Shown here: in pieces, positions 36,458-62,558 of the stretch
Position numbering within the stretch: the stretch's first letter is position 1
Layout of the letters: each line of letters begins with the position of its first letter
Assembly (NCBI GenBank): GCA_019358855.1
Contig: JAHHII010000003.1
Coordinates: 186,001-250,000, forward strand
DNA length: 64,000 bases
Source: Timaviella obliquedivisa GSE-PSE-MK23-08B
GTDB taxonomy: Bacteria > Cyanobacteriota > Cyanobacteriia > Elainellales > Elainellaceae
Reading direction: 5' to 3'
Position numbers and translations under genes: made by a program
Notes under the pieces: model-generated
The model's database searches: none
What the model was told of the DNA's origin: nothing
The model's input: only the letters and a program-made list of their open reading frames with translations

Positions 36458-36619
36458 GGAGTTGCATGCAATTAAATAACACCCTGAATCGCCCCCTAAA
36501 TCCCCCATTCTGGGGGACTTTGAAAGGTTCGGAAGTCCCCAGAATGGGGGATTTAGGGGGCTGAAAAGTCAATGCGTCTCACTGGATTTTATTTTCACGC
36601 AACTCCAGAGCAACTCCCT
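36458..36619. mobile_element. MITE-like element, copy C (about 162 bp, inverted)
   Basis: Reverse orientation relative to A and B. The left end (GGAGTTGCATGCAATTAAAT) follows the peptidase stop directly. The right end is duplicated (GCAACTCC then GCAACTCCCT) and its last base is shared with the stop codon of the convergent phosphopantetheinyl transferase gene. The palindromic core would form a strong hairpin in either transcript. Confidence 0.8.
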
Positions 36620-58611: not shown

Positions 58612-60240
58612 ATGTCCACCGCAGAATCCCCAAACTTAGCTGAGGCGATCGCCCATCGTCGCAACTTTGCCATCATTTCCCACCCCGATGCTGGGAAAAC
58701 AACGTTGACTGAAAAGCTGTTGTTGTACGGGGGTGCCATTCACGAGGCAGGCGCAGTCAAGGCGCGGCGAGCACAGCGACACGTCACGTCTGACTGGATG
58801 GCGATGGAACAGCAACGGGGTATTTCGATCACCTCGACGGTGCTGCAATTTGAGTACAGCAACTACTGGATCAATCTGCTGGATACGCCGGGACACCAAG
58901 ATTTTAGTGAAGATACCTACCGTACTCTTGCTGCTGCTGATAATGCGGTCATGCTGGAAGATGCGGCGAAGGGCTTAGAGCCGCAAACTCGCAAGCTGTT
59001 TGAGGTTTGCCGAATGCGGGGAATTCCTATTTTTACATTCTTCAACAAGCTCGATCGCCCTGGGCGTGATCCGTTTGAGCTAATGGACGAAATTGAGAGC
59101 GAATTGGATTTGAAGACCTACGCTGTCAACTGGCCGATTGGCATGGGCGATCGCTTCAAAGGCGTGTTCGATCGTACAACCCGTAAAATTCATTTGTTCG
59201 AGCGTAGTGCCCACGGTAGCCGCGAAGCTACCGAGACGGTGATTGATTTGGGCGATCCCCGCATTGAAGATTTGCTGGAACAGGATCTGTATTACAAGCT
59301 CAAAGAAGATCTAGAGATGTTGGACGGGGCTTGCTCTGAATTTGATTTGGACTTGATTCATCAAGGCAAAATGACTCCCGTGTTTTTTGGTAGCGCCATG
59401 ACTAATTTTGGAGTAGAGCTTTTCCTCAACTCGTTTTTAGACTACGCTCTGAAGCCCGGTTCTCGTCGTAGTACTTTGGGCGACATTACTCCTGAATATC
59501 CGGAGTTTTCAGGATTTGTGTTTAAGCTGCAAGCGAACATGGATCCCAAACACCGCGATCGCATTGCTTTCATTCGCGTCTGTTCTGGCAAGTTTGAACG
59601 AGATATGGTGGTCAGTCATGCTCGCACGGGTAAATCGGTGCGCCTTTCCCATCCTCAAAAGCTATTTGGGCAAGATCGGGAATCGGTGATCGAAGCGTAT
59701 CCTGGCGATGTAATTGGTTTGAATAACCCTGGCGTTTTTGCCATTGGCGACACCATCTTTAACGGGCAGAAAATGGAGTACGAGGGCATTCCTTGTTTTT
59801 CGCCAGAGTTATTTGCTTACCTTAAAAATCCTAACCCTTCCAAGTTCAAACAATTCCGCAAGGGCGTGAACGAATTGCGGGAAGAAGGCGCAGTTCAAAT
59901 TATGTACTCTGCCGATGAAGCTAAGCGCGATCCGATTCTGGCAGCAGTCGGGCAACTGCAATTTGAAGTGGTGCAGTTTCGTCTACAAAACGAGTATGGT
60001 GTTGAAACCATGCTGGAAGCCTTGCCCTATAGCGTTGCCCGTTGGGTCGTGGGTGGCTGGGAAGCGCTGAAAAAGGCAGGTCGTTTGTTCAATACTGTGA
60101 CGGTAAAAGATAGCTGGGGGCGACCTGTATTGCTGTTCCGGAATGAGTGGAACTGTCAGCAGGTGGAGGGCGATCATCCAGAGTTACAGTTGAATGCGAT
60201 CGCGCCTGTGGTGTCTGGGCAAGAGCCTGAGTCGCTATAG
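58612..60240 (+). CDS. prfC: Peptide chain release factor 3
   Basis: GTPase that recycles RF1 and RF2 from the ribosome after termination. The 542 residues contain [19 protein letters not shown] (P-loop), [34 protein letters not shown] and the RF3-specific C-terminal domain ([18 protein letters not shown]). Length and order standard. Confidence 0.97.
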
Positions 60241-60256
60241 CAGTTCCTATCACCGA

Positions 60257-60475
60257 CTATACATCTGGATGGGACAGGGCATGTTGAATCAGTCTCATCA
60301 ACAGGCGCAATCCTTCATTAAATGACCCAGAATCTGGAAAAATTGTCGCCACATCAGGATCTAACTGGATAGTTAGGGCAGATTTTTTGCGTCCTTGACC
60401 ACATGCTACAACAGAGAGTTGAGTAAAGTCGTATTCAGGGCGTAAATCATCATCCATTTCAAAGGTCTGACTCAT
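60257..60475 (-). CDS. Small antitoxin-like protein
   Basis: A 72-residue protein starting MSQTFEMDDDLRPEYDFTQL, then GQGRKKSALTIQLDPDVATIFPDSGSFNEGLRLLMRLI. The acidic DDDLRPEYDFxxL motif followed by a short ribbon-helix-helix-like stretch is typical of cyanobacterial antitoxins of the BrnA/VapB sort. No toxin gene adjoins it. Start at 60475 with AAAGGA upstream; a longer frame to 60511 exists. Confidence 0.55.
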   Translation of the reverse strand: MSQTFEMDDDLRPEYDFTQLSVVACGQGRKKSALTIQLDPDVATIFPDSGSFNEGLRLLMRLIQHALSHPDV

Positions 60476-60544
60476 GAGCTTTACGTTCCTTTCGGGTAAC
60501 TGAACGGGCACTGATTAGGCTCATGGGATTTGCACAGTCAGTAT

Positions 60545-60644
60545 AAGCGCATAACGGCAGGCGCGTCACCGGACGGCATTGCACTTTGCATCATAACTAA
60601 TTGCATAAACCTCTGTTCCGAGTACACACACTTGTTAGGCGCTT
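60545..60644 (-). repeat. Integron attC-like site
   Basis: Read on the minus strand: AAGCGCCTAAC (60644-60634) and GTTATGCGCTT (60555-60545) pair with one mismatch. The outer left core is GCCTAAC (RYYYAAC consensus), the right is GTTATGC (GTTRRRY, one deviation). Inner segments TACTCGGAAC and GTCCGGTGAC also pair with gaps, as L''/L' boxes do. Span is 100 bp. It follows the stop of the 60645-61067 gene immediately, as in a gene cassette. No integrase gene is in the window. Confidence 0.55.
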
Positions 60645-61067
60645 TTAGTACAGCGTATTTTGAACCATGTTGCCCCACATGGCAGTTCGCTGCAACTCTT
60701 CGTCTTGAAAAATTACTGTACCAAATGTGTCATCCACAATTCGCCTACCGTTTTCGTATACATGAACATGTATTCCTTTTTCTTGCGGACGTTCTGCTGT
60801 CCACAAGACTGCTGGAGTAGATGCCCATATTTCAAATTTTAGTCCAGCATAATCATCTAGGCATAAAGTTCTATCAGGAACAGTATAGGTATTGCTATTA
60901 CTAAACTGATCATGTAATGGCTTGAGTGGAGTGGAAACGATGGGTTCGGTGCTCCAAATGCTGTCGGTTCCACAGTTCCCACAAAAATGCTTTTTGTGGG
61001 GGCTAGTCGCAAAGTCACCTAAATCAAGATGTGGGTAGCCACACTTTTTACACGTAATACAAGACAT
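60645..61067 (-). CDS. Zinc-ribbon protein with IHVH domain, cassette-like
   Basis: A 140-residue protein. N-terminal zinc ribbon with C6xxC9 and C29xxC32. The C-terminal part (about 75-125) has FEIWASTPAVLW and GIHVHVYENGRRIVDDTFGTVIF, shared with the next gene (61122-61775). I do not recognise the family. The stop is at the border of an attC-like site. The gene lacks HIP1 octamers and is AT-richer than its neighbours by eye, which fits acquisition from elsewhere. Confidence 0.65.
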   Translation of the reverse strand: MSCITCKKCGYPHLDLGDFATSPHKKHFCGNCGTDSIWSTEPIVSTPLKPLHDQFSNSNTYTVPDRTLCLDDYAGLKFEIWASTPAVLWTAERPQEKGIHVHVYENGRRIVDDTFGTVIFQDEELQRTAMWGNMVQNTLY

Positions 61068-61121
61068 TGTTCGGTCTTCCTCAATCGACCGGACAAACTC
61101 AAATGCAGCGGGAGGTGTTAC

Positions 61122-61775
61122 CTAAATTCTTGTGATCTCTGGATTTTTAAATAAGCTAAGTTTCTCATTGTAAGAACAAACAATAGCGTCAAAATCTCTA
61201 TCTACAGTCTTATTTACCCTGCTGCTAAATCGCTTGTGTACATGAATTTTGGGAGCCCTTTTTTCGATACACTCTGAGGATAAAGCTGGAGGAAGAGAGC
61301 ACCAAATGCCAATTTCTTCAAAGTCCTTAAACTCTATTTCCAATGGGTTAATTACATAGCTCATCTTGGTGAGATGATTGCTGCATCTCACTTCCCCTGA
61401 TTCAGATGCGGCTGCGTAATCAGCTTTTACCCCCCAGTGTATTTGATGGGTTTTGCAGTACCACCGTTTTGCTCCATTCCGAAACTTGCCAGCAGGAATT
61501 ATCTGACAAGGAAGAATAGCATCATCACCAGAGGCTCCTTCAAACATACCGAAGGCTTCCTCTGAGCTAACTGCAATATTTCCGATCGTTCTGCCTGGAG
61601 CCCAACAAACGGCATCGGCTGCATTATAGTCATCGTGCGAGAAGTCAATGGCTTCTTCGTCACCCAAATTGCGAATGTATTCCTTTTTCGCCACTCCGGT
61701 GCCTTTGTTTGACCACTCACATTCCCAGACTTCAACTTTCTGAGTATCCTTATTAATTCTCCTGGAGTAAAACAT
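61122..61775 (-). CDS. Relative of the zinc-ribbon protein, extended N-terminus
   Basis: A 217-residue protein. The N-terminal 100 residues have no recognised fold (MFYSRRINKDTQKVEVWECEW...). Then CKTH...CSNH (about 108-135), a possible zinc site in the place of the neighbour's ribbon. It ends with EIGIWCSLPPAL and PKIHVHKRFSSRVNKTVDRDFDAIV, aligning with the neighbour's C-terminal domain. So the two adjacent genes are diverged relatives. No attC-like site is evident in the 54 bp between them. No HIP1 octamers. Confidence 0.65.
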   Translation of the reverse strand: MFYSRRINKDTQKVEVWECEWSNKGTGVAKKEYIRNLGDEEAIDFSHDDYNAADAVCWAPGRTIGNIAVSSEEAFGMFEGASGDDAILPCQIIPAGKFRNGAKRWYCKTHQIHWGVKADYAAASESGEVRCSNHLTKMSYVINPLEIEFKDFEEIGIWCSLPPALSSECIEKRAPKIHVHKRFSSRVNKTVDRDFDAIVCSYNEKLSLFKNPEITRI

Positions 61776-61886
61776 ATTTCTCAGAAAATTGATGTTCTAT
61801 CTGTAAGTTCCCAAACAACTTGCTTCACCCGCTGCTAGTGATCTTTTAGACTCAAGCCACCACCGGAACCAAAGCCACATAACAAC

Positions 61887-62558
61887 CTAGTTAAATTGCT
61901 GGCTTAACGTCACTGGATTATGAACTGTGATCTTTTTCTTGTGAATAGAAATCATTTCATCGGTGCGCAAGTCGCCTAGCAAACGAGTCACAGTAACACG
62001 GGTAGAACCGATCGCCTCTGCGATCGCCTGGTGCGAAAGCTTTAAATCGATGGTGATCCCTTCTCCTGTAGGAGTTCCAAAATCTCGGCACAAGATCAGC
62101 AAAAAGCTTACCAACCGCGAACCCATATCTCGGTGTGCCAATGTCTCAATCATCATCTCTGTTTGCAGAATCCGAGACGACAAACCTCGCAGCATAATCA
62201 GGCAAAGTTCGGGGTTGTCTCTGAGTGCTTTTTCAACCTGCTCAATCGGCACTGACAGCAATTCTACGGGGGTGAATGCGACTGCATGGTAGAAGCGATC
62301 GGCTCGTTGCCCCGTAATGAGGGATAGCACGCCAAACACGCTGTTCTCTCGCAGCAGAGCAACCGTGATCTCTTCACCCGCTTCGTAAACCCGCGATAGC
62401 TTCACTGCGCCCTTGACTAAAAAGTAGACTCGCTCTGCCGGATCACCCGGAAAGAAAATCGTTTTGCCGCGATCGAAGGTTTCTAGGATAGGCGGGCAAG
62501 CACTCCCCCCGAGTTGACGGAATACATTCGCTAATGGTCTATCTTGTAACGCTACCAT
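61887..62558 (-). CDS. ntcA: Global nitrogen regulator NtcA
   Basis: CRP-family activator that senses 2-oxoglutarate and controls nitrogen assimilation genes. The 223-residue protein has the cyclic-nucleotide-like effector domain ([57 protein letters not shown]) and a helix-turn-helix [25 protein letters not shown]. Sequence is near-consensus for the family. It is divergent from fabI-ureA; the spacer has repeats and a CRP-type site. No clear GTA-N8-TAC self-binding site was found by eye. Confidence 0.97.

Follow-up and report, generated by a model that had tools for sequence, protein, structure and literature searches.

Clusters of attC sites and single attC sites without an integrase are described, under the names CALIN and SALIN, in passages of PMC12690207 and PMC8618304, and the latter text gives the loss of a recognisable intI as one of their origins. 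It also names Cyanobacteria in its list of integron-carrying phyla, and according to an excerpt of PMC8352920 a Cyanobacteria attC model exists already. The insertion of cassettes at attG sites is cited from Loot et al. 2024 in parts of PMC12901181 and PMC12444791. A search of the open PMC library for a dedicated paper surveying cyanobacterial integrons found none. The integron integrase, IntI, recombines attC sites as folded single strands and cuts them at G^TT.

The attC site and its relatives

The DNA analysed here, referred to as the window, is a 64,000-nucleotide stretch of the genome of Timaviella obliquedivisa GSE-PSE-MK23-08B. The original prediction, made from the sequence letters, placed in it an attC-like site of 100 bp in which 10 of 11 outer bases pair, directly after the stop codon of a gene. 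Inspection of the minus strand (60644-60545) bore this out: the ends read AAGCG-CCTAAC ... GTTATG-CGCTT, the outer bases pair at 10 of 11 positions, and the 100-bp form (60545-60644) begins immediately 3' of the TAA of the ORF at 60645-61067. The R'' and R' boxes (GCCTAAC and GTTATGC) form six of seven possible pairs. The sequence occurs as a single copy in the genome, and the dispersed repeat that the prediction had allowed for can be set aside. An Rfam scan of 60200-62000 gave no match at E<=1, and promoter and terminator scans gave no signal, with two matches each where shuffles gave 3.5 and 1.3. The coordinates of the site, its parts and its surroundings are collected in Table 1.

Table 1. 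Coordinates of the attC site, the cassette gene and the flanking features in the window
Feature	Position	Strand	Basis or remark
attC site (R'' to R')	60549..60640	-	covariance model R1 and homology to L055:13439-13530
R'' box GCCTAAC	60634..60640	-	sequence; aligned to model
L'' box region GTGTGTGTACTCGGA	60617..60631	-	eroded relative to GCGCGTG(C/T)ACACGGA of the two closest relatives
L' box region TCCGGTGACGCGC	60561..60573	-	same sequence as in the G022 relative
R' box GTTATGC	60549..60555	-	predicted crossover G^TT between 60555 and 60554
Cassette gene, 376 codons and stop	60645..61775	-	in-frame TAG at 61124-61122
Inferred cassette, ~1,261 bp	60555..61815	-	between the crossovers of attC-1 and attC-2
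Putative decayed attC-1 (loop, L', R'; 3' half)	61811..61852	-	42 bp matching own-genome attC C5:252021
Flanking gene, Crp-family regulator (presumably ntcA)	61887..62558	-	Pfam; gene order
Flanking gene, peptide chain release factor 3 (presumably prfC)	58612..60240	+	ORF; order in relatives

The site was scored with a home-made covariance model, R1, which describes R, L and inner stem and was built from 27 attC-like sites located near cyanobacterial integron integrase genes, with the window site excluded. The training sites were hand-picked for pairing and clear orientation from 69 rows (both strands counted) and from further array sites. Left out of the training were L038:19669, L045:12148, L049:14754, L051:4924, L055:14303, L056:4720 and L083:17018, as well as two sites in L086, L092:3928 and 15420, and near-copies in L072 and L088. 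In the R1 alignment, 91.1% of the pair cells held standard pairs (71.7% in shuffles) and 16 of the 21 pairs showed changes on both sides (11.0 in shuffles), figures that are biased upward because the sites were picked for pairing. The window attC aligned with the full length of the model and scored 32.9 bits (E=1e-5 in the window, E-values being rough), the best of 16 rows, with the next at 16.9; in a search of the whole genome, its E-value was 7.7e-4. The check by covariance model that the original prediction had proposed therefore gave a significant result, although with a home-made model. When R1 was run on seven proteobacterial genomes (40.5 Mb) as a control, a single match at E<=1 was obtained. 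On 627 kb of loci holding homologs of the cassette gene it gave four matches, three of them immediately behind the homologous gene. Elsewhere in the window (36494-36558), a strong G+C-rich inverted repeat reached 16.9 bits (E=0.071) without having AAC/GTT ends; it is probably a hairpin and not an attC.

Pairing and folding were compared with chance. Three sites in the window had AAC/GTT ends, nine or more of 10 pairs and spacings within set limits; shuffled windows held a mean of 1.7 such sites per 64 kb. The fold of the minus strand, also put forward as a check, gave no support: with its flanks, the strand folded no better than shuffles (z -0.78 and -1.11), and the bottom strand of the bare site gave a z of +0.69, its hairpin being lost. 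The window site thus lacks the inner L''/L' pairing and the bottom-strand hairpin with extrahelical bases, while the related site in G022 (another genome of the family) still forms the attC hairpin (z -1.89). Among the 12 sites folded, two from the own genome (L101 and L105) had good scores yet poor folds (z +0.33 and +0.90), so that poor folding alone is no proof of decay. Strict attC patterns were too unspecific to help, occurring at four places in the own genome and at two in the control. Strict pairing scans near integrases gave few matches because R boxes are often imperfect, and were replaced by a combined scoring of R and L boxes. With outer pairing at the level of chance and folding no better than in shuffles, other evidence was needed, and it is the covariance score and the homology to other attC sites that place the window site above chance. 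Since its L'' box is eroded and its hairpin gone, the site is classed by homology as a decayed attC rather than a working one; it is homologous to attC sites that keep the hairpin, and is itself probably impaired.

The closest relative among 130 collected attC rows was that same G022 site (L055:13439-13530), identical at 73 of 92 positions. It lies behind a glutathione S-transferase-like gene (Pfam), and roughly 0.9 kb away is an integrase gene in the opposite orientation that is itself interrupted. A BLAST search of plasmids found a further copy on pNe_5 of Nostoc edaphicum (75.9% identity over 87 bp), located 15 bp behind a gene named DUF2934 in the record. R1 scored this window-like copy at 29.0 bits and a second site beside it at 51.5 bits. 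A search of phage records with the window attC gave no match. The three copies have different neighbours and share a common body from R'' on; they diverge right after CGTTA, next to G^TT, in accord with a cassette boundary at this crossover.

The cassette gene and the place of insertion

The 140-codon gene named in the original prediction does exist as an ORF (60645-61067), but it turned out to be only the 3' part of a 376-codon frame broken by an in-frame TAG. The TAG leaves ORFs of 217 and 140 aa, and both halves are otherwise open. The frame is uninterrupted in the homologs of a Pseudanabaena sp. (G220) and of Nodosilinea nodulosa (G273). The 140-aa C-terminal part is present in 11 of the 388 genomes of the class, the own genome included, and shows 89, 84 and 81% identity to homologs in other families; among the matches listed, the own genome is the only one of its family with a homolog.

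Several of these homologs are followed by attC sites. In genome G089, an attC (78.2 bits) lies 8 bp 3' of the gene, within an array. Some 4.7 kb away, in the opposite orientation, is an integrase (model positions 64-313, 380.9 bits) that the first part of this array faces. The G089 copy of the gene is interrupted near its own 3' end. The Nodosilinea homolog also has an attC behind it (67.0 bits), and the Pseudanabaena homolog has none there. A search of a genome collection gave 55 loci (L154-L208), with identities of about 70% in Burkholderia, Pseudomonas, Nitrospira and others. In 30 of these loci the 3' side was inspected. Three had an attC-like site behind the gene, namely Nodosilinea, a Nitrospira MAG (20.4 bits, E=0.1) and a Sphaerotilus MAG (35.8 bits), and one had an R''-like start only. 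In the other 26 no attC was visible behind the gene, which is therefore not always a cassette: it travels as one in several lineages, but not exclusively. That the window site marks an integron cassette, as had been proposed, is thus supported by the R1 score, by the homologous attC sites and by the status of the gene in relatives.

The 376-aa protein matched no Pfam, NCBIfam or PADLOC family over the cut-off. It contains a zinc-ribbon-like CxxC...CxxC stretch and two HVH-containing repeats. Its sequence profile gave a best E-value of 0.73 against the PDB. A structure was predicted with a mean pLDDT of 81, and searches with it gave no Foldseek match at E<=0.001 (best 0.31) and a best VIA-align Z of 3.2 over 41 residues. 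These results do not show a new fold. The gene is of interest as a member of a family that has no Pfam, NCBIfam or PADLOC model over the cut-off and whose members in Proteobacteria and Nitrospira are about 70% identical.

The cassette gene and its attC lie between a Crp-family regulator gene, which we take to be ntcA, and a gene for peptide chain release factor 3, which we take to be prfC. At 30 ntcA loci of the family, prfC was directly convergent in six (28-246 bp), followed after 763 bp in one and was in tandem in one; in the remaining 22 it was outside the examined stretch, which was shorter in a few. This order in relatives points to the interval between the two genes as having received additional DNA in this genus. 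On the ntcA side, a stretch of 42 bp aligns to an attC of the own genome (C5:252021) with a local score of 56, reached by none of 200 shuffles. The corresponding flank of a sister species (G001) matches the loop part of the same attC with a score of 36 (two of 200 shuffles). On this sequence comparison the 42-bp stretch is read as a decayed attC (attC-1) that would be older than the split of the two sister species. R1 gave no match at 61811-61852, so the 5' border of the cassette is less sure; from the alignment it would lie at G^TT, 61816/61815. On the prfC side, homology with the sister species breaks off within the final bases of the attC (TAAGCG|CATAAC). Both flanks of the sister locus continue into other sequence and lie on separate contigs with contig ends, so that no clean empty site is shown there.

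Two further observations concern the flanks. A 79-aa ORF on the minus strand between the attC and prfC (60257-60496) has a weak match to BrnA antitoxins (E=0.032, under the cut-off), and its DNA is conserved, with indels, in the sister species. In both the window genome and the sister species, ntcA has AAC as the final sense codon before its TAG (61887-61898), where the other 28 ntcA loci compared have ACN (Thr). Speculatively, this AAC may derive from a former R'' box.

Integrase and attC sites in the genome and in cyanobacteria

As predicted, the window holds no integrase, and hence no functional intI with an attI beside an array, as a complete integron would have. The search of the genome for an IntI-type integrase, made with model TIGR02249 at its curated cut-off, yielded one trace only. 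This is a C-terminal piece under the cut-off (122.8 bits, model positions 222-313) in a frame of 93 codons at C3:403339-403620, which lies 157 kb from the attC site. The sister species has a full-length integrase gene (468.9 bits), convergent with a gene that is presumably lepA. The remnant occupies the same position next to this gene, and the two genomes are 88-89% identical in DNA across the remnant and the lepA side. A remnant in the place of the full-length intI of the sister indicates that the species lost its integrase by truncation. Truncated fragments of integron integrases are also frequent elsewhere in the family (several in one genome, G003), and decay of the integrase therefore looks recurrent. 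In the sister species, a 77-bp inverted repeat with perfectly paired ends (L018:2587-2663) lies a short way upstream of the intact intI; R1 does not recognise this repeat, which could be part of an attI or a different element.

The other half of the genome search, for further attC sites, was successful: R1 gave 16 matches at E<=0.001 on seven contigs, with a group of three on contig C16 and another group on C5. The window site is thus not the stray cassette that had been suspected. In 12 of 19 own-genome attC loci, an ORF on the same strand, 50 aa or longer, ends no more than 160 bp before the site. Among six such ORFs compared with Pfam, two matched GNAT acetyltransferases and one each a methyltransferase, a flavodoxin-like reductase and a YafQ-like toxin from a toxin-antitoxin pair; the sixth had no family. 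Such mixed gene content is usual for cassettes.

Integron cassettes had been thought untypical of cyanobacteria, which does not hold: an integrase over the curated cut-off is present in 26 of 60 related genomes (and the phylum is already among those listed for integrons). In the same 60 genomes (G000-G059), R1 matches at E<=0.001 were found in all 36 of the family and in 22 of the 24 others of the class, that is, in 58, with up to 123 per genome; these counts rest on a short calibration of R1. They were also found in 23 of 25 genomes without an integrase match at E<=1e-25. The median number of matches was 29.5 in genomes with an integrase over the cut-off and 10.5 in those without (Mann-Whitney p=0.004, relatedness and assembly quality being ignored). 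The breadth of attC sites in cyanobacteria may be less expected than the window site itself. We tentatively consider, as a possibility on balance doubtful, that the cyanobacterial integron consists for the most part of cassettes scattered through the genome, with attC sites, single or in small groups, in nearly every genome. These would outlast the integrase, and there may be supply in trans, through plasmid-borne attC or the IntI of neighbours, unless the sites are kept for another role. If so, the fossil cassette of the window would be one of many such events. R1, which has matches in 58 of the 60 genomes, opens the persistence of integrase-free cassettes to direct testing.

Origin of the cassette and comparison with known systems

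We are highly confident that the window carries a genuine but eroded attC, which forms the end of a ~1,261-bp cassette between ntcA and prfC, and which would now be a CALIN/SALIN fossil that the genome's own integrase is unable to move. The element is accordingly best described as a decayed cassette that is probably immobile. This reading builds on established points: the attC is homologous to others, the gene is a cassette in relatives, half an attC lies at the opposite end, the genome holds 16 matches, and the intI remnant has an intact ortholog in the sister species. The steps that led there are reconstructed. An ancestral integron would have stood beside lepA. Its IntI would have folded the bottom strand of an attC and cut it at G^TT, and the circular cassette would have been placed at or beside an earlier attC-derived site next to ntcA, of which 61811-61852 would be the 3' half. 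Afterwards, intI would have been truncated, the cassette gene would have acquired its nonsense codon, and the L'' box would have eroded until its pairing was lost, leaving a fossil attC without integrase. What was an isolated oddity thereby becomes a readable history, in which one species keeps the platform intact, its sister has it truncated, and the cassettes are variously decayed.

The main rival concerns the mode of arrival. A single cassette, never part of an array, may have been inserted straight into a non-attC site beside ntcA (attC x attG). This process has reportedly been described by Loot et al. 2024, and it would suit the scatter of 16 matches over seven contigs and the end of the prfC-side homology with the sister species at the end of the attC. 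We regard it as unlikely, since the ntcA-side border carries 42 bp of an attC 3' half, a shorter part of which is found in the sister species too, suggesting that an attC was there beforehand; nor was an exact empty site seen in that species, where other sequence and contig ends occur.

Placement at an earlier attC followed by decay also has to be weighed against a cassette that is still mobile or expressed, the TAG being read through or an assembly error and IntI being supplied in trans from a plasmid or another strain. The otherwise open halves of the frame and the presence of the same attC lineage on a Nostoc plasmid would agree with this, but the L'' box is eroded, the site is unfolded while its G022 relative folds, and the intI is a remnant; such a cassette is improbable. 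An ordinary inverted repeat or terminator-like hairpin that resembles an attC by accident would account for the chance-level outer pairing and the poor folding; it is very improbable given the score of 32.9 bits, an attC body common to two other cassettes with all three ending at GTTA, the other attC sites found behind the gene elsewhere and the lack of an Rfam match. A site used by some other recombinase (Xer-like or a transposon end), as the original prediction had considered, would fit a genome without an intact IntI, but nothing points that way, and with sites of the same kind in arrays beside IntI genes in G022 and G089 and an intact intI in the sister species this is hardly credible.

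Among known systems, the complete sedentary chromosomal integron is represented by G089, where a homologous gene is a cassette; the window locus differs from it in having no functional intI with an attI beside it. The attC sites of cyanobacterial chromosomal integrons (G022/L055 and the G089 array) share with the window site the R''/L''/L'/R' order, a length of about 90 bp, a position directly behind a gene and the GTTA end, although in the window L'' is unpaired, the preceding gene is broken and no intI is nearby. CALINs and SALINs differ in that the window genome keeps an integrase remnant elsewhere and that one of its two attC sites is only half preserved; like them, the window presents an attC without a neighbouring integrase, in a genome over which such sites are scattered.
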